In this document: positions 5,507 through 19,330 of the stretch, one piece after another
Layout: every line of letters starts with the position of its first letter
Numbering within the stretch: the first letter of the stretch is position 1
Origin: Desulfuromonadales bacterium
GTDB taxonomy: Bacteria; Desulfobacterota; Desulfuromonadia; Desulfuromonadales; Geoalkalibacteraceae
Length of the DNA: 38,110 bases
Direction of reading: 5' to 3'
NCBI GenBank assembly: GCA_024636255.1
Contig: JAGXHK010000077.1
Span: 1-38,110, forward strand
Position numbers and translations under genes: made by a program
The notes under the pieces: model-generated
Database searches by the model: none
What the model was told of the DNA's origin: nothing
What the model saw: the letters and a program-made list of their open reading frames with translations, nothing else

Positions 5507-7084
5507 ATGGATTATCGGATCATACACAAGGCACTTCTGCAACCTGAGGCCTATCCCGATGCGCCGGGGGAAATTTCTTTTCTCGAAACGCACATTTCGC
5601 GCCTCTATTTCACCGCAGATCATGTGTACAAAATCAAAAAACCTGTAAATTTCGGCTTCCTCGATTTCACAACACTCGATCGCCGGCGGTTTTACTGCCA
5701 GGAAGAAATTTCGCTCAATAACCGGTTCTGCCCCAATACCTATCTGCGCGTGGTCGACATTCGCGAAAAGAACGGCCGGATTCGCATTGATGGCGAAGGA
5801 GAGGTTGTCGAGTACGCCGTTCTCATGAAACGACTCCCCCGAGAACGTATGCTCGATCGGCTGATCGATGCGGGCGACCCTTTTCTGCAGGGCGAAATGG
5901 GCCGGCTTGCCCGCTACCTGGCGGAGATCGAGAGCACAGCACGCGTCTGCCGCGACAATGAACGCAGCAACCTGGAAACGGTCCAGCGCAACTGGCGCGA
6001 GAATTTCGATCAGGTCGAGCCCTACGTAGGCCGGACACTCGAAAGAGTCGCTCAGGAGGCGACTCGCACCTATGTAGATCGGTTTCTGAGTGAAAATACA
6101 GAGCTGCTCAAGGAGCGGGAGGAGCAGGGATATGTGCGCGAGGGACATGGCGACCTGCACGCCGAACACATCGTCCTGACCGATCCGATCTGCATTTTCG
6201 ATTGCATTGAATTCAACCGCCGCTTCCGTATTGCCGATGTGGTTGCGGATATCGCCTTCCTGCTCATGGATCTCGATTTCAGAGGACGCCGCGATCTGGC
6301 CCGGCGTTTGCTGCAAGAGTACGTGAAGGCCAGCGAACCCGATCCCGGATTTAACAGGCTTCTGCCCTTCTATAAGATTTACCGGGCGTTCGTACGCGGC
6401 AAGGTCAATTCCTTTCTCTTTGGCGATGAATCCGCCGAGGAGGCAGAGCGCGAAAAAGCCGCTCACCACGCCAGGCGATATTTCAATCTCGTCCAGGGCT
6501 ATCTGTGCCCGCAGGTGCTGATTCTGACCTGTGGCCTCATGGGAACCGGAAAGAGCACCATAGCGCAGGAACTTGCCGATCTGCTGGCGGCCGATCTGTG
6601 GCGATCCGATGTGCTGCGCAAGGATCTGGTCGGGCTCCCTCCTGCGCAGAAACGCGAGGATCCATACGGCACGGGCATCTATGCCCCGGCGTTAACCCGC
6701 CGGACCTACGACCAGATGCTGCAACACAGCCGGGAAAGCCTTAAAGCTGGACAAAGCGTCCTCGCCGATGCATCCTTTGCAAAGCGTGAGGACCGCGACC
6801 GATTCCAAGAAGAAGCACGCCGCCTCGGTATACCCTGTCTGCTTGTGCACCTGCACTGCCCTGCCGAAACGGCGCTGGAGCGGCTCGATGCCCGCCGTGA
6901 CCGCCCGGATGAGGCCTCCGAGGGGCGGCGCGAACTCTATCGCGAACAGGAAAAATCCTTCTCACCTCCCGAATCGGATGAAAATCCGCTTATGATCGAC
7001 ACGACTGACTCACTCGATTATAGTGTGCACCTTATTCTCGGCGAACTTCTTCGCCGCGGGGGAGAGCCGCATGAAGGATCTTAG
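5507..7084 (+). CDS. Two-domain protein: aminoglycoside-phosphotransferase-like (COG2187-type) plus P-loop kinase (COG0645/Zeta-like)
   Basis: Brenner-type motif GHGDLHAEHIVL...IFDCIEFN in the N-terminal half; Walker A LTCGLMGTGKSTIAQEL in the C-terminal half. GGAG precedes the ATG. Confidence 0.85.
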   Translation: MDYRIIHKALLQPEAYPDAPGEISFLETHISRLYFTADHVYKIKKPVNFGFLDFTTLDRRRFYCQEEISLNNRFCPNTYLRVVDIREKNGRIRIDGEGEVVEYAVLMKRLPRERMLDRLIDAGDPFLQGEMGRLARYLAEIESTARVCRDNERSNLETVQRNWRENFDQVEPYVGRTLERVAQEATRTYVDRFLSENTELLKEREEQGYVREGHGDLHAEHIVLTDPICIFDCIEFNRRFRIADVVADIAFLLMDLDFRGRRDLARRLLQEYVKASEPDPGFNRLLPFYKIYRAFVRGKVNSFLFGDESAEEAEREKAAHHARRYFNLVQGYLCPQVLILTCGLMGTGKSTIAQELADLLAADLWRSDVLRKDLVGLPPAQKREDPYGTGIYAPALTRRTYDQMLQHSRESLKAGQSVLADASFAKREDRDRFQEEARRLGIPCLLVHLHCPAETALERLDARRDRPDEASEGRRELYREQEKSFSPPESDENPLMIDTTDSLDYSVHLILGELLRRGGEPHEGS

Positions 7085-7313
7085 GCCAACCCAGATCAAA
7101 GAAGCCTGGACCCTGCTCTTTGTGCTGGGCGTGATCATGATCAACTATCCATTCATACATATCTTCAACAAGGAAACCACCGTTTTCGGCAGTCCCCTGC
7201 TGGTGGTCTATTTCATGGTCGGATGGCCGCTGTCCATTCTGGTCGTCTACATTTTCGTGCGACATCTTGAACATCAACCAACGGAAGACGAAGGGAAAGA
7301 TTCCGAAGAATGA
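7071..7313 (+). CDS. Small two-TM membrane protein, CbrX-like partner of an SLC5-type sensor
   Basis: MKDLRPTQIKEAWTLLFVLGVIMINYPFIHIFNKETTVFGSPLLVVYFMVGWPLSILVVYIFVRHLEHQPTEDEGKDSEE; two hydrophobic segments. It overlaps the upstream gene by 14 nt and the downstream gene by 4 nt (ATGA). GGGGAGA precedes the ATG. Confidence 0.8.
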   Translation: MKDLRPTQIKEAWTLLFVLGVIMINYPFIHIFNKETTVFGSPLLVVYFMVGWPLSILVVYIFVRHLEHQPTEDEGKDSEE

Positions 7314-10300
7314 TCTCCGTTCAACTCGTCGCCCTGATCTCACTGGCGTATTTTGCTCTGCTCTTCGGTGTGGCGTATTTCGCCGATAAACGTCGTGAAG
7401 CTGGACGCAGCATTATCTCCAATTCCCATATCTATTCCCTCTCGCTGGCCGTTTTCGTCACGACATGGACCCTTTACGGCAGTGTGGGCCGCGCCGCGAC
7501 CAGCGGACTCGATTTTCTGCCCGTCTATCTCGGTCCGACTCTGATCGCCTTCACCTGGTGGTTTTTTCTGCGCAAGATGGTGCTGGTCAGCAAAGAGCAC
7601 AACATCGTGAGCATCGCCGACTTTATCTCCAGCCGTTACAGAAAGTCGGCAGTGCTCGGCGCGATCGTCACAATCTTTGCGGTGATCGGGATCATGCCCT
7701 ACATCGCCCTCCAGCTCAAGGCGGTGGCGCACACCTTCGATCTGTTGACAACAACACAGGTCGGCCCGGGCGGCAGCGCACAATTTACCCCGCTGGCTCC
7801 CCGCATGGACACCGCGTTCATCGTCGCAACCGTCCTTGCCTTGTTCGGAGTCCTGTTCGGGGCCCGCCGCCTTGACGCTTCGGCCCGTCACGAGGGGCTC
7901 GTCGCCGCCGTGGCTCTGGAGTCGATCATCAAGCTGGTCGCTTTTCTGGCCGTTGGCGTGTTCGTGACTTACGGTCTATTCGATGGCTATGCCGATATCT
8001 TTCAGCGCTTTTTCGCCACTTTCCCGGACCGTGATTACCTGGTGACAATTGGCACCACCCAGATTCCCTATGCCAAATGGTTCTCCCTGACATTTATCTC
8101 CATAATGGCGGTGATGTTTCTACCCCGCCAGTTCCATATCATGGTCATCGAGAATTCGGATCCCAAGCATATCAAGAGTGCCATGTGGCGCTTTCCAGCC
8201 TACATGTTTTTGATCAATCTTTTCGTTATTCCCATCGCCCTTGGCGGCCTGCTCATGTTCGGCGGCGATACGACCCATGCCGACTATTTCGTGCTTCACC
8301 TGCCCCTCGAGTCAGGGCATCACTGGCTGGCACTGCTCGTTTTTCTCGGCGGATTTTCCGGAGCGGCCGGCATGGTTATGGTCTCCTCCATCGCGCTGGC
8401 CACGATGATTCTCAATCACCTGGTGATGCCGATCGTGATCAAGCTTCGCTTCGAATCTCACGATCTCTCGGGATTTCTGATCAATATGAAGCGCCTTGCC
8501 ATCGTGGCCGTCATTTTCCAGGGGTATCTCTATTACAAGATCATCGGCGACTCCTTTGCTCTGGTGAATATCGGGCTGATCTCCTTCGTTGCCGCCACCC
8601 AGTTCGCTCCTGCGGTAATCGGCGGTCTTTACTGGCGCCGTGGCAACGTGAGCGGCGCCACCACCGGCCTTCTCCTCGGCTTCGTCGTCTGGTTCTACAC
8701 GCTGCTCGTCCCCTCGTTCGTGCGCTCCGGATGGGTGAAGACGGATATTCTCGAAAACGGTCTTTTCGATCTTCCGCTGCTGCGCCCCACCGAGCTTTTC
8801 GGTCTGAGCGGATTCGACCTGTGGACCCACTCACTGTTCTGGACGATGTTTTTCAATCTTTCGGCCTACCTGCTCGTCTCTCTGCTCACCCGGCCCAACA
8901 GCATCGATCGTGAGCAGGCCGCCAAATTCGTCGACCCTGAAAGCTATCGAGAAGAAGAGCAGAAACGCAGGCGCATAAGTAAAGCACCGACGATCATGGA
9001 GTTCGTCAACCTGATGGCAAAATTCATCGGAGAAAAGCAGGCGCATGCCACCATCGCTGAATATCTGGGCGACCGCGAGATCGACGAGCGCGGCAGTCTC
9101 TCTGAGTATGATCTCCCCAATCTGAAGCGTTTTGCCGAACGCACTCTGGCCGGATCGGTGGGGACCGCCCCGGCGCGAATCATCATTGAGAACTATCTCT
9201 CCGCCCGCGGCAGCGAAATGGAGGATGTTTTCGATATCTTCGGCACCGTCACGTTGAGTCGGACCGCCAGCCGGGAACAGCTCGGCGTGCTGTATGAGGC
9301 GGCAAGCATCGCCGCCAGCGGCGAGGAGCTCAAAAACATACTGGATAATATTCTCGAGCTGCTGATGCGCCAGTTTAAGTTTGATCTGTGCGTTATCCGC
9401 ATACTTGACGAGGACCGCAATTCCCTGATCGTGCGCTCGCAGAAAGGGATGAGTTCCGAACATCTGGGCGAGTCAGAACGCGACCTGTCAATGGACACCT
9501 ACATCGGCGAAGCTTTTCTTACCAATTCAGTGAATAAAGTCAACGATACCGATTTTCTTGAAAAGCCCCACTCGGCGCAGATTATCCATCGCGAAGGCAT
9601 TAAATCGTTCGCCCACGCACCGATTACGGTCGAGGGGCAGCCGATGGGTGTGCTCTCTGCCTTTTCCCGCTCGGTGAAGGGCATTTTCACCGAGGAGTTT
9701 GTCGAGCGTTTTCGCAGCCTCGCCGGGCAGATCGGCGTTGCCTGGCGTAATGCTTCCCAGACCAGAAGGCTGATCGAAGTGCGCGGCCAGGAACGCGAAC
9801 TGCAGATTGCTAAAAACATTCAACTCGGTCTGTTGCCGACCCAAACGCCAAAAACGACTGGAATCTCTCTGGCCGGAATTTGTGTCCCGGCCAGGCAGGT
9901 CGGAGGAGACTACTACGATTATCTCGAACGCGGTGAGAACGGCATCGATCTGATCATCGCCGACGTTTCAGGACATAACGTGGGAGCGGCGCTGATTATG
10001 GCCGAAGCGCGGACCTTCATCCAGGCCCAGGCCCGCCAGATCGACTCGGCCAATGAGATTATGGAGGCGATCAATCGCTTTTTCTACGCCGACCTGACAC
10101 GAGCCGAATTATTCATCACCATGTTTTACCTCAAGTACAACAGCGCAAACCACGAGATGGCCTACGCCAGCGCGGGTCACAATCCGCCGCTGATCTGGCG
10201 CCGCGATTCCAACGCCTGTGAATGGCTGGACGCCGAGGGTCTGATTCTCGGCATCAGGAAAGAAGTTGTTTTCGAAGAAAAGAAGGGGACATTGAACCCT

Positions 10301-10519
10301 GGCGATCTCGTATTACTCTATACCGACGGCATTATCGAAGCCGAAAACGCTCGAGAGGGATTCTTCGGTCGCGATCGCCTGTGCGCCCTGGTGAGTGAAT
10401 ATCACGATCGGCCGCCACAGGAGATCATCAATAACCTGCTTGACCAGGTCAGACTTTTTACCGGCATGCAGACCTTCAACGATGACGTGACAATGATCGT
10501 CATGCGGGTCGAAAAATGA
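7310..10519 (+). CDS. SLC5 (sodium:solute symporter)-type sensor / STAC-like linker / GAF / SpoIIE-type PP2C phosphatase fusion
   Basis: About 540 aa of SSS-like transmembrane sequence, then a STAC-like segment (TIMEFVNLMAKFIGEKQAHATIAEYLG...LPNLKRFAERTLAGSVGTAPARIIIENYL), a GAF-like region, and SpoIIE motifs (PARQVGGDYYDYL, IADVSGHNVGAALIMAEA, GDLVLLYTDGIIEAEN, NDDVTMIVMR). Confidence 0.9.
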   Translation: MISVQLVALISLAYFALLFGVAYFADKRREAGRSIISNSHIYSLSLAVFVTTWTLYGSVGRAATSGLDFLPVYLGPTLIAFTWWFFLRKMVLVSKEHNIVSIADFISSRYRKSAVLGAIVTIFAVIGIMPYIALQLKAVAHTFDLLTTTQVGPGGSAQFTPLAPRMDTAFIVATVLALFGVLFGARRLDASARHEGLVAAVALESIIKLVAFLAVGVFVTYGLFDGYADIFQRFFATFPDRDYLVTIGTTQIPYAKWFSLTFISIMAVMFLPRQFHIMVIENSDPKHIKSAMWRFPAYMFLINLFVIPIALGGLLMFGGDTTHADYFVLHLPLESGHHWLALLVFLGGFSGAAGMVMVSSIALATMILNHLVMPIVIKLRFESHDLSGFLINMKRLAIVAVIFQGYLYYKIIGDSFALVNIGLISFVAATQFAPAVIGGLYWRRGNVSGATTGLLLGFVVWFYTLLVPSFVRSGWVKTDILENGLFDLPLLRPTELFGLSGFDLWTHSLFWTMFFNLSAYLLVSLLTRPNSIDREQAAKFVDPESYREEEQKRRRISKAPTIMEFVNLMAKFIGEKQAHATIAEYLGDREIDERGSLSEYDLPNLKRFAERTLAGSVGTAPARIIIENYLSARGSEMEDVFDIFGTVTLSRTASREQLGVLYEAASIAASGEELKNILDNILELLMRQFKFDLCVIRILDEDRNSLIVRSQKGMSSEHLGESERDLSMDTYIGEAFLTNSVNKVNDTDFLEKPHSAQIIHREGIKSFAHAPITVEGQPMGVLSAFSRSVKGIFTEEFVERFRSLAGQIGVAWRNASQTRRLIEVRGQERELQIAKNIQLGLLPTQTPKTTGISLAGICVPARQVGGDYYDYLERGENGIDLIIADVSGHNVGAALIMAEARTFIQAQARQIDSANEIMEAINRFFYADLTRAELFITMFYLKYNSANHEMAYASAGHNPPLIWRRDSNACEWLDAEGLILGIRKEVVFEEKKGTLNPGDLVLLYTDGIIEAENAREGFFGRDRLCALVSEYHDRPPQEIINNLLDQVRLFTGMQTFNDDVTMIVMRVEK

Positions 10520-10662
10520 AGGCTTCACTTCAGATTCGCACATGGCGAATGGAAGGGAGATATGGTATCGTAGTGATTAACGCGCTTTCAAAAATATCGG
10601 AGAGCAAAAAGGATCGGCTTCTGCTGGAAAATTCAGATTTTTGAAATGAAGGAGATATTCCA

Positions 10663-10998
10663 ATGATTCTTAAAGTTGAAGAAAAAGACGATGTTGTTTT
10701 AATTCAGGTTAAGGAGGAGCGTCTGGATGCCCACAACAGTGGCGAATTGAAAAATCAGATGCTCAACCTGTTCGAAGAGGGAAAAAATCATATCGTCATT
10801 GATCTTCAGGATGTCCGTTTCGTCGACTCTTCAGGTCTCGGCGCCCTGGTCTCCGGTTTCAAGAATGCCAGCGCGCGTAATGGCAACCTCAAGCTCTGCG
10901 GTCTGCAACCCCAGGTCAAGTCTATGTTCGAGCTGACCCGGCTGCATCGGGTCTTCGAGATCTTTCCCGGCACGGATGAAGCCCTGGACAGTTTCTGA
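10663..10998 (+). CDS. STAS-domain anti-sigma factor antagonist (SpoIIAA/RsbV-like)
   Basis: 111 aa with the phosphoacceptor motif HIVIDLQDVRFVDSSGLGALVSG; GAAGGAGAT precedes the ATG. Confidence 0.93.
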   Translation: MILKVEEKDDVVLIQVKEERLDAHNSGELKNQMLNLFEEGKNHIVIDLQDVRFVDSSGLGALVSGFKNASARNGNLKLCGLQPQVKSMFELTRLHRVFEIFPGTDEALDSF

Positions 10999-11018
10999 CC
11001 GGGGCCTGCGGGGGGCAT

Positions 11019-11441
11019 ATGAAGAACGAAAAAATAGAGGTGGACATCAAGGTCCCCAATCAGACCCGCTACCTGAGTCTCATTGGAAAGATCGGTGAAG
11101 ATATCGCACGGACCCTCAAGCGCTACAAAGGTGATCGTGAAGAACTCGCCTATCATATCAACCTGGTTCTGACCGAATCGATGACCAACGCGATCCGGCA
11201 TGCGCACGAGGGGGATCCGACCAAAGAGGTGCACCTGACGATCTCGATTCAGGAAAGCAATCTGGTCATCAAGGTCTACGACCAGGGGCAGGGTTTCGAC
11301 ATCAGTAAAGCCCCCATGCCGAAATTCAAATGCCTCGACGAGCATGGTCGGGGCGTCTTCATCATTCACTCCCTGATGGACAGCGTCACGTACCGCGAAT
11401 TTGACGGCGGCCATGTCCTCGAGATGATCAAGGCCCTTTGA
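11019..11441 (+). CDS. ATP-binding protein / anti-sigma factor serine kinase (SpoIIAB/RsbW-like HATPase_c_2)
   Basis: 140 aa; N-box LTESMTNAIRHAH, G1 YDQGQGFDI, G2 EHGRGVFIIHSLMD. Confidence 0.92.
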   Translation: MKNEKIEVDIKVPNQTRYLSLIGKIGEDIARTLKRYKGDREELAYHINLVLTESMTNAIRHAHEGDPTKEVHLTISIQESNLVIKVYDQGQGFDISKAPMPKFKCLDEHGRGVFIIHSLMDSVTYREFDGGHVLEMIKAL

Positions 11442-15913: not shown

Positions 15914-17671
15914 TTACTCCTCGTCTTCCTTATCCGAAGCCTGCTTCATGGCACCCTGCAACAGATCGCCAAAGCTGGATGTCGCCTCTTTCTGCGCACC
16001 GAGAAAAGCATCGACCTCGGCCTTCTCTTTCTGGTGGGAAAGCTTCTTGATCGACAGAGCGATTTTGCGCTCTTCGGTGTCGACATTGAGAACAACAGCT
16101 TCGAGATCGTCGCCGACTTTTGCGAAATCCTTGGGCGATTCGATCTTTTCCTTGCTGATCTCGGACACATGGATCAGCCCTTCGATTCCCTCTTCGATCT
16201 CGAGAAAAATACCGAAATCAGTCACGGAGGTCACAGTGCCGTGCACGATCGTACCGGCGGGGTAACGGGCCGGGATGGTCGACCAGGGATCGGAGGCAAG
16301 CTGCTTGATTCCGAGAGAGAAACGCTCATTTTCACGGTCGATATTCAGAACAACCGCCTTGACCGTATCCCCTTTCTTATAAAGCTCGGAGGGATGCTTG
16401 ACACGCTTGGTCCACGAAAGGTCGGAGATGTGAACGAGACCGTCGATCCCTTCATCAACGCCGACGAAAATACCGAAATCCGTAATATTCTTGACCTGGC
16501 CCTCGATGATCGTGCCGACCGGGAACTTCTCGCCGATCACATCCCAGGGGTTCGGTTCGGCCTGCTTGAGGCCGAGAGATATACGCCGGTTCTCGGCATC
16601 TACGGCGAGGACAACCGCTTCTACGTCGTCGCCGATATTGAGAACCTTGTTCGGGTGCTTGATTCGCTTGGTCCAGCTCATCTCCGAGACATGGATCAAG
16701 CCCTCAACCCCCTCTTCAAGCTCAACGAAGGCGCCGTAATCCGTCAGGCTGACAACCTTGCCGGTCACCTTGCCCCCGACCGGATAACGCTCTGCAGCGG
16801 CCTCCCAGGGATCGGGCGTAATCTGCTTGAGGCCGAGAGAAACGCGCTCTTTCTCACGGTCGTACTTGAGAACCTTAACGTTGACCTTGTCACCGACTGT
16901 GAGAATATCCGAAGGATGATTGACCCGTCCCCACGACATGTCGGTAATGTGCAGCAGGCCGTCAATGCCGCCAAGATCTATAAATGCACCATAATCGGTA
17001 AGATTCTTGACCACGCCTTCGAGCACTTTGCCTTCTTCAAGAATCTCCAGCGTCTGGCCGCGCATCTGCTCTCGCTCTTCTTCGAGGAGAACCCGGCGTG
17101 AGAGAACGATGTTCCCGCGACGCTTGTTAAGTTTGATAATCTTGAATTTAAACAGTTGCCCGATGAGCTTTTCAAGATTGCGAACCGGCCGCAGGTCGAC
17201 CTGGGACCCGGGCAAGAAGGCATTCACACCGATATCGACGGAAAGGCCGCCCTTGATCCGGGAAACGATGCGCCCGTCAACGACAGCATCCTCTTCGAGA
17301 GTATTCCAGACCTTCTGCTGATCGGCTTTTCTTTTCGAGAGCCTGACCAGGCCTGTTTCGGCGTCTGTCCCTTCGAAAAGGACGTCGAACTCATCGCCGA
17401 CCGAGAATTCCGGCTTTTCCCCATCTTCGGCGAACTCAGACTGAGAAATGATTCCCTCGGACTTGTAACCAACGTCGACAACGACCGAGTCAGGATTCAC
17501 CTGCACCACCGTTCCCTTGACGACATCGCCGGGTTTCAACGCCCTGTGAGATGAATCGAGGAGTTCGGCAAAGCTCAGCTCTGACTCTTCCCCTTCAAAC
17601 TCATCCCCCTCATACTCGTCATCCATGAGCTCATCGTCGTTCTGGTTGATCGTTTCCTTGTTTTCCACCAT
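15914..17671 (-). CDS. rpsA: 30S ribosomal protein S1
   Basis: Repeated S1 modules (GKVLEGVVKNLTDYGAFIDLGGIDGLLHITDMSWGRVNHPSDIL, GKVTGKVVSLTDYGAFVELEEGVEGLIHVSEMSWTKRIKHPNKVL, ...). The ATG at 17671 (MVENKETI) fits better than the longer ORF start. Confidence 0.96.
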   Translation of the reverse strand: MVENKETINQNDDELMDDEYEGDEFEGEESELSFAELLDSSHRALKPGDVVKGTVVQVNPDSVVVDVGYKSEGIISQSEFAEDGEKPEFSVGDEFDVLFEGTDAETGLVRLSKRKADQQKVWNTLEEDAVVDGRIVSRIKGGLSVDIGVNAFLPGSQVDLRPVRNLEKLIGQLFKFKIIKLNKRRGNIVLSRRVLLEEEREQMRGQTLEILEEGKVLEGVVKNLTDYGAFIDLGGIDGLLHITDMSWGRVNHPSDILTVGDKVNVKVLKYDREKERVSLGLKQITPDPWEAAAERYPVGGKVTGKVVSLTDYGAFVELEEGVEGLIHVSEMSWTKRIKHPNKVLNIGDDVEAVVLAVDAENRRISLGLKQAEPNPWDVIGEKFPVGTIIEGQVKNITDFGIFVGVDEGIDGLVHISDLSWTKRVKHPSELYKKGDTVKAVVLNIDRENERFSLGIKQLASDPWSTIPARYPAGTIVHGTVTSVTDFGIFLEIEEGIEGLIHVSEISKEKIESPKDFAKVGDDLEAVVLNVDTEERKIALSIKKLSHQKEKAEVDAFLGAQKEATSSFGDLLQGAMKQASDKEDEE

Positions 17672-17743
17672 TAAAGAGAAACCCCCTAACAAATTTCCTG
17701 CCGATTAACAGCAGGTTCGTGTCTTTTTGACAACAGGAAGGGA

Positions 17744-17772
17744 AGATAGCACATAGGTCTGCAAAAAACAAA
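17744..17772 (-). promoter_or_regulatory. Candidate sigma70 promoter for rpsA
   Basis: Minus strand TTGTTT-N17-TATCTT with an extended -10 (TGC TATCTT). Confidence 0.5.
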
Positions 17773-17780
17773 TCTTAATT

Positions 17781-18620
17781 TTAATCTTCGAAATTCGTCA
17801 GCCTGTTCACCACGTCGTCAATAATCCAGTGCGGCGTGGACGCTCCGGCGGTGATTCCGACCGAGGTGCATTCATGAAACCAGCCGGGCTCGATCTGCTC
17901 AGCAGTTTCGATGTGATATGTCCGTGGCTGAATCTGACTGCAGATCTGGGCCAAGCGGTTGGTATTGGCGCTGTTGAATCCACCGATGACCAGGACCACG
18001 TCCGACAGGTCGGCGATCCGGCGCGCTTCCTCCTGGCGTACCGAGGTCGCATCGCAGATGGTATTGAAGATGCGCAGTTCGGCGCTTCTGGAAAGACAGA
18101 GATCGGCGATCCTGCGCAAATTTTCATAGGACTGAGTGGTCTGGGCCACCAAGCCAATGCGCCTGCGCCGCGGAAGTGATTCAGCTTCCTCGGGCGAACC
18201 GACGACCCAGACCTCTCCCGAGGCGGCGAAAGAGACAATCCCCTGGACCTCGGGGTGCTCTTTTTCTCCCACGATGATCACTGTGTAGCCGTCCCGGCTG
18301 AGCTGTGCAGCATGTTCCTGAGCGTTTTTGACGAACGGACAGGTGGCATCGATGATTGTCAAATCGCGCGCGGCTATCGCCTCCAGTTCAGAGGATGTCA
18401 CCCCATGGGAGCGCACGATGACCGCGCCTTTCTCGATGTCCTCGACACGTTGGATTACGCACACCCCCTTGTCCTCGAGCGTTTTAACGAGCTGCGGAGA
18501 ATGAATGATCGGTCCAAGCGAGCAGATCGGGGCATGCTCCTCGACCGCCTCGAAGGCCATCTTTGTCGCTCGCTTGACGCCAAAGCAATACCCGGCGCTC
18601 TTTGCGACCTGAACTTTCAT
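17781..18620 (-). CDS. ispH: 4-hydroxy-3-methylbut-2-enyl diphosphate reductase
   Basis: MKVQVAKSAGYCFGVKRATKMAFE, CPFVKNAQEHAAQLSRDGYTVIIVGEKEHPEVQGI, VGITAGASTPHWIIDDVV. Confidence 0.97.
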   Translation of the reverse strand: MKVQVAKSAGYCFGVKRATKMAFEAVEEHAPICSLGPIIHSPQLVKTLEDKGVCVIQRVEDIEKGAVIVRSHGVTSSELEAIAARDLTIIDATCPFVKNAQEHAAQLSRDGYTVIIVGEKEHPEVQGIVSFAASGEVWVVGSPEEAESLPRRRRIGLVAQTTQSYENLRRIADLCLSRSAELRIFNTICDATSVRQEEARRIADLSDVVLVIGGFNSANTNRLAQICSQIQPRTYHIETAEQIEPGWFHECTSVGITAGASTPHWIIDDVVNRLTNFED

Positions 18621-19330
18621 GGCCGATCTCCATCGGAACGGATCGGCAGCCCGGCGGCACGCCGCCGCTGCTGAGCAACAGCCGCCATCTGCTCGAGCAC
18701 CTCGGATATCTCCAGTTGGGTTGAATCGATAATCACAGCGTCCTCTGCCGGTATCAACGGTGCATGTGTGCGGTTTCGGTCCGCGGCGTCGCGCGCCTTG
18801 ACTTCGGCAATGGTCGTCTCCAGATCCACTTCAAGGCCTTTGGCCTGCAGCTCCTCAAAGCGCCGGCGCCCTCTTTCCCGGGCCGATGCTTCGAGAAAGA
18901 ATTTCACCTCGGCGTCGGGAAAGACAACGGTTCCGATGTCGCGCCCCTCGAGCACCACTCCTCCCCCTGCCCCCATCTGGCGCTGCAGGAAAACCATCGC
19001 CGCGCGCACCCTGGGGTGAGCGGAAATTCTTGAGGTCAACAGGCTGATCTCAGGGGTGCGTATCGCCTCGCTGACATCCTTCCGATTCAGCAGAACGCGC
19101 TGATCGTCATTACTGCGCACGAAACTGATTTCAAGGTGAGAGCAGATTTGGGCAAGCGCTGCCTCATCTGAGGGATCGAGCCCATCGCGCTGAGCCGCCA
19201 CCGCGACACAGCGATACATCGCCCCCGTGTCGATATGGATATAGCCGAAGCGCCGGGCAAGCAGCCCGCTCAAGGTGCTCTTGCCGGCCCCTGAGGGGCC
19301 GTCGATGGCAATGATCGGTTCACGTTTCAA
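18617..19330 (-). CDS. cmk: Cytidylate kinase
   Basis: IAIDGPSGAGKSTLSGLLARRFGYIHIDTGAMYR and VLEGRDIGTVVFPDAEVKFFLEASARERGRRR. 4-nt overlap with ispH. Confidence 0.96.
   Translation of the reverse strand: MKREPIIAIDGPSGAGKSTLSGLLARRFGYIHIDTGAMYRCVAVAAQRDGLDPSDEAALAQICSHLEISFVRSNDDQRVLLNRKDVSEAIRTPEISLLTSRISAHPRVRAAMVFLQRQMGAGGGVVLEGRDIGTVVFPDAEVKFFLEASARERGRRRFEELQAKGLEVDLETTIAEVKARDAADRNRTHAPLIPAEDAVIIDSTQLEISEVLEQMAAVAQQRRRAAGLPIRSDGDRP

Follow-up and report, generated by a model that had tools for sequence, protein, structure and literature searches.

A predicted CbrA-like transceptor with a phosphatase in place of its two-component output, beside a probable partner-switching pair in Desulfuromonadia

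Transceptors of the CbrA kind place an SLC5 transporter-like domain and a STAC domain in front of a histidine kinase, and to our knowledge they have been characterized experimentally with two-component outputs only. Can the same front end be wired to another kind of phosphate signal? The question is raised by a 38,110-nucleotide stretch of DNA from a Desulfuromonadales bacterium (GenBank assembly GCA_024636255.1, contig JAGXHK010000077.1), the whole of which we refer to as the window; it is contig C160 of a genome that is 82% complete, and the nearest named relative in our genome scans was a Geoalkalibacter metagenome-assembled genome (MAG; 76% identity). An earlier note, made from the letters alone, had drawn attention to a 1069-amino-acid protein encoded at 7310–10519 on the + strand, read it as SLC5-STAC-GAF-SpoIIE, and proposed that it acts on a partner-switching pair encoded by the next two genes. 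The coordinates, reading frames and domain order were borne out. From the sequence evidence set out below, we consider it quite probable that the protein is a CbrA-like transceptor that has exchanged its two-component output for a PP2C phosphatase, and that this phosphatase sets a STAS/HATPase partner switch.

Searches with hidden Markov models found GAF, SpoIIE, STAS and HATPase_c_2 in the products of this locus, but the Pfam SSF profile (PF00474) did not match the 1069-amino-acid protein, although it does match a paralogue (E=1.7e-11). Pfam SSF alone would therefore miss the SLC5 region, and it was recognized by comparison with CbrA: phmmer aligned residues 5–633 to the SLC5-STAC chain of the CbrA cryo-EM structure (PDB 10ed, E=3.6e-78), in agreement with the SLC5-like and STAC-like N terminus that the earlier note had described. 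We also built an AlphaFold2 model from 21 orthologues (predicted local distance difference test 81.6, predicted template-modelling score 0.60), which matched SLC5, GAF and PP2C folds; a Foldseek search with this model returned SLC5 transporters (SGLT2), the phosphatases RssB, SiaA and SpoIIE, and the GAF structure 2qyb. That the region is an unrelated membrane domain, as the silence of the Pfam profile might have suggested, was ruled out by the match to CbrA together with the fold search. The SLC5 (LeuT-fold) domain spans residues about 5–540 (7322–8929), and its 13 expected transmembrane segments are taken from homology and fold. The STAC domain (residues about 562–632, 8993–9205) aligns to that of CbrA, and the model places four helices there, where STAC is expected.

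Behind the STAC domain, residues 673–811 (9326–9742) match the Pfam GAF_2 profile (E=9.3e-15), and residues 666–820 match 2qyb (E=5.5e-34; template-modelling score 0.84, 45% identity). The structure 2qyb, from Geobacter sulfurreducens, is annotated as the GAF part of a putative membrane protein, and its sequence is 85% identical to the GAF domain of a full-length SLC5-SpoIIE protein at another locus in our survey (L141). Because of this identity, a GAF domain of the SLC5-SpoIIE family was very probably solved already in 2007, and we found no discussion of the architecture to which it belongs. In the model, a continuous helix (residues 795–841, 9692–9832) runs from the GAF domain to the output, which is a SpoIIE-type PP2C domain at residues 877–1067 (9938–10510; PF07228, E=1.5e-52). 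The C terminus also matched PP2C chains by phmmer, and the domain is as intact as it had first appeared: the metal-binding aspartates are kept on alignment, with D867, D885, D1006, D1058 and D1059 invariant in 119–120 of 120 orthologues. The HisKA and HATPase_c domains of a histidine kinase are not present. Given its SpoIIE PP2C output, the protein is not a member of the SLC5/STAC sensor histidine kinases, though its front end is homologous to theirs.

The two genes downstream encode what had been taken for a partner-switching pair. The STAS protein (10663–10998, + strand) resembles anti-sigma-factor antagonists (PF01740, E=1.4e-23); its alignment with SpoIIAA makes S56 the expected phosphoacceptor, and the surrounding DSSGLG motif (D55-S56-S57-G58) is invariant in 109/109 sequences. 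The RsbW/SpoIIAB-like HATPase (11019–11441, + strand; PF13581, E=1.5e-24), a predicted serine kinase, aligns with RsbW (6m36) and SpoIIAB and has an N-box in which E53 and N57 are invariant (105/105). Where enough flanking sequence was available, a STAS gene lay downstream of 101 of the 112 SpoIIE versions and a HATPase gene downstream of 95 of 106, and neither was found downstream of any of 26 versions with a kinase output (the kinase counts here and below leave out L012 and L051, which represent one TAG-interrupted SpoIIE gene). The pair thus tracks the phosphatase and belongs to it rather than to the front end. We inspected three genomes (G000, G001 and G002) for competing partners. The STAS protein of the module is their only single-domain PF01740 match, all others lying in transporter-sized frames of 499–593 amino acids, and the HATPase is their only strong RsbW-like match. 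These genomes encode one (G000, whose assembly is incomplete), five (G001) and three (G002) SpoIIE domains. In the search for sigma factors, sigma70 region-2 matches were few, at 3–5 per genome. As for the interrupted gene, it carries a single TAG codon in frame, close to where the GAF domain begins; the genome (G024) is complete, and the interruption may be a sequencing error, a pseudogene or a case of recoding.

To place the fusion in its lineage, we surveyed 146 genomes of the class Desulfuromonadia at a match threshold of E<=1e-60. Matches were present in 132 of them, nearly all full length, which ruled out a chance fusion or an artefact of MAG assembly. The incomplete matches include one covering residues 7–306 only (G114) and one covering the phosphatase part only (G088). 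In a 297-genome sample of the phylum, a full-length match with SpoIIE was found only in Desulfuromonadia. A 64% identical protein is encoded on a contig (L091) binned into a MAG labelled Chloroflexi; the contig likely comes from Desulfuromonadia and was mis-binned. At another locus (L049) two SLC5-SpoIIE paralogues stand in tandem (8085–11294 and 15996–19187), separated by ~4.7 kb, and neither has STAS or HATPase genes beside it; a complete locus is present elsewhere in that genome.

Outside the class, the phylum sample contained the front end with a different output. Matches there stopped at residue 845 or earlier, and the proteins sampled carried HisKA and/or HATPase_c, some with receivers; the front end including the GAF domain was 44–51% identical to histidine-kinase proteins of other Desulfobacterota. 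In a front-end tree rooted on CbrA, all SpoIIE versions formed one clade nested among kinase versions, with a support of 98 in the first tree and 99/100 under a mixture model. The tree thus calls for a single replacement of the output, in the ancestor of Desulfuromonadia or earlier, and since kinases occupy every other branch, kinase-to-phosphatase is the economical reading of that change. These relationships support the earlier proposal of a rewired sensor, whose closest front-end relatives are indeed histidine kinases. Matches to GAF-bearing kinases end at residues 817–845 of our query, so that homology ends in or just past the helix at 795–841. The exchange point accordingly lies within the GAF-output helix or immediately behind it, which fits the idea that one movement can drive either enzyme.

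The front end also has a companion. The earlier note correctly listed the SLC5-SpoIIE, STAS and HATPase genes and missed two genes upstream, one at 5507–7084 and a small open reading frame (ORF) at 7071–7313 (+ strand, ATG at 7071). The small ORF encodes an 80-amino-acid protein with two predicted transmembrane helices and shares an ATGA overlap with the SLC5 gene. An equivalent lies upstream of 108 of 117 SpoIIE versions with enough flank, most commonly with an overlap of 4 nucleotides, and by our own count 17 of the 24 histidine-kinase versions with enough room have one too; in the family alignment W52 and P27 are invariant and two helices are hydrophobic. In CbrA, the small protein CbrX binds the SLC5 domain (PMC13022988) and is not required when cells grow on histidine (PMC7918813, PMC13022988). 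Because the small ORF is present whichever output follows, its product belongs with the SLC5 part, matching CbrX. A search for sequence similarity to solved chains in the PDB found no match to CbrX or any other chain; we call the protein CbrX-like by position, overlap and two-helix topology. Its distribution supports the view that CbrX-like small proteins are partners of the transporter, not of the kinase.

What might the SLC5 domain sense? The Na2-site lysine of CbrA, K196, is reported to explain coupling to protons and not to sodium (PMC13022988). It corresponds to K208 here (codon 7931–7933), and the lysine is kept in 119 of 120 SpoIIE and 26 of 27 kinase versions. Of the residues that line the CbrA pocket, W55, F71, Y75 and F406 are kept, and three are changed (S53 to T51, A56 to T54 and F248 to S264). 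With the lysine kept and the pocket altered, the domain is likely proton-coupled, and its ligand need not be histidine. The kinase versions have a pocket nearly identical to that of the SpoIIE versions, and their ligands may therefore be common. The neighbours of the kinase versions gave nothing consistent as a clue to the ligand (REC-kinases, aconitase/isocitrate-dehydrogenase family enzymes, DUF294). Our reading of single residues against CbrA ends at about residue 530, before the SLC5-STAC contacts, because numbering past that point did not match the residue names in the paper.

A kinase paralogue of the front end also exists within Desulfuromonadia (L035–L039), in which nine pocket positions are as in the SpoIIE versions except F49. 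Its neighbours include a DUF294 nucleotidyltransferase (L036) and a HAMP-RNase_T protein (L035). The DUF294 nucleotidyltransferase hints that this paralogue may be the acetate system, of the CrbS type, in these bacteria.

In the mechanism that we propose, the SLC5 domain would change conformation as it binds a small solute or transports it with protons. STAC and GAF would relay this change through the helix to PP2C, and a cytoplasmic ligand of GAF may contribute to the signal. The phosphatase would dephosphorylate S56 of the STAS protein, which would then bind the HATPase and pull it off its target; with the phosphatase off, the HATPase would phosphorylate the STAS protein and hold the target. 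We infer, as the earlier note did, that the phosphorylation state of STAS could depend on solute binding or flux. These steps are modelled on work with CbrA, RsbU and SpoIIE, and the architecture, conservation, linkage and single change of output come from the sequences analysed here. For a stronger version, in which the state of a proton-coupled SLC5 transport cycle directly controls a serine-phosphate partner switch across the class, including Geobacter, with the output swapped once and the small subunit and pocket kept, we put the chances at about even.

Several observations weigh against the mechanism. No dedicated sigma factor gene was found near the operon in the neighbourhood covered by the window, and some duplicated SLC5-SpoIIE copies have no STAS or HATPase neighbours. 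All eight genomes of one family (f4, L155–L162) have lost the SLC5-SpoIIE gene together with the small ORF, and retain the STAS-HATPase genes and those downstream; the pair can thus work with another phosphatase, and in this family must be served by one or have another role. The soluble part of CbrA can signal without the SLC5 domain when highly expressed (PMC7918813), which, together with the dispensability of CbrX, means that the SLC5 domain may only modulate. That last point bears on an alternative that we regard as unlikely though worth serious thought, namely that sensing falls to the cytoplasmic GAF domain and SLC5-STAC is a transporter or anchor that only delivers its ligand or localizes the phosphatase, with the partner switch unchanged. 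The GAF domain is kept with the front end whether a kinase or a phosphatase follows, and in CbrA, besides the signalling by the soluble part, expression of a target gene depends on the PAS domain (PMC7918813). However, the STAC domain, small ORF and pocket residues are conserved class-wide, and the one shortened example (G088) was not reduced to GAF-PP2C: it lost the whole unit, front end and small ORF included, leaving a stand-alone PP2C of 267 amino acids with intact catalytic residues between the APH/AAA gene and STAS-HATPase.

The persistence of PP2C-STAS-HATPase in G088 without any SLC5 domain also argues against a reversed flow of information, in which the cytoplasmic domains or the PP2C, STAS and HATPase proteins regulate SLC5 transport and transport is the output. 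In its favour, the role originally suggested for STAC was the regulation of solute transport (PMC4834066), and some STAC proteins stand alone. Against it, the same front end precedes histidine kinases, where information runs to the kinase, and we consider this reading the least plausible of all. We give only slightly more credence to a separation of the two halves, in which the SpoIIE domain has different substrates, and STAS-HATPase is a module that lies nearby under its own regulation. It would accommodate family f4, the further SpoIIE proteins of some genomes and the duplicated copies that stand alone. Set against it are the adjacency of the genes at most loci, the retention of a stand-alone PP2C beside STAS-HATPase in G088, the lack of another single-domain STAS protein in the three genomes inspected, and co-loss: outside f4, the six genomes without SLC5-SpoIIE (G070, G073, G110, G130, G148 and G151) also lack orthologous STAS and HATPase genes (G110 having weak matches only), as does G114. 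The co-loss genomes come from three genera and thus reflect few independent events.

The transceptor-phosphatase that we propose combines features of several known systems. With CbrA/CbrXA of Pseudomonas (SLC5-STAC-PAS-histidine kinase plus CbrX; PDB 10ED, PMC13022988) it shares SLC5 and STAC, the Na2-site lysine, most pocket residues and a small two-helix ORF overlapping upstream; it differs in having GAF for PAS, PP2C for DHp-CA and no response regulator. The CrbS/MxtR-type hybrid kinases (acetate; PMC5715377) have the same SLC5-STAC architecture with a kinase output, and STAC has also been reported with GGDEF outputs (PMC5715377). As in RsbU-RsbV-RsbW and SpoIIE-SpoIIAA-SpoIIAB, genes for PP2C, STAS and HATPase are adjacent and their catalytic motifs intact; unlike in those systems, the sensor is SLC5-STAC-GAF, no cognate sigma gene is nearby and the hosts are Gram-negative anaerobes. 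One sentence in a 2021 review mentions actinobacterial SSS proteins with GAF, PP2C_SIG and HATPase_c (PMC7918813). These proteins, as described, resemble ours in SSS, GAF and PP2C_SIG and differ in having HATPase_c in the same polypeptide; STAC, a CbrX-like ORF and STAS go unmentioned in the review. In a literature search that reached few subscription papers, we found neither the exchange of outputs nor an SLC5-STAC-GAF-SpoIIE protein encoded next to STAS and RsbW genes described before.

The + strand run at 5507–11441, comprising the APH/AAA_33 kinase fusion, the small membrane protein, the 1069-amino-acid protein, STAS and HATPase, is a probable operon; the genes beyond 11441 lie on the − strand, and a scan for promoters and terminators found nothing convincing. 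Its first gene, P0002 (5507–7084, + strand), encodes a fusion of an APH-like domain (PF01636, E=1.6e-07) and an AAA_33 P-loop kinase (PF13671, E=2.4e-26) and overlaps the small ORF by 14 nucleotides. A counterpart occupies the same place at 48 of 107 SpoIIE loci with room, and genes of this type adjoin STAS even in genomes without the SLC5 protein; membership of P0002 in the SLC5-SpoIIE system is doubtful.

With two enzymes found behind one type of sensor, the coupling of SLC5-STAC to a cytoplasmic enzyme becomes testable by comparison, and a PP2C assay is simpler than a phosphorelay. Family f4, which lacks the sensor-phosphatase, is a natural experiment on what can take its place in serving the STAS-HATPase pair. 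If our proposal is true, Geobacter and its relatives would hold a conserved, unexplored nutrient-linked switch, and a phosphate signal of another kind may link the uptake or binding of a nutrient to gene control.

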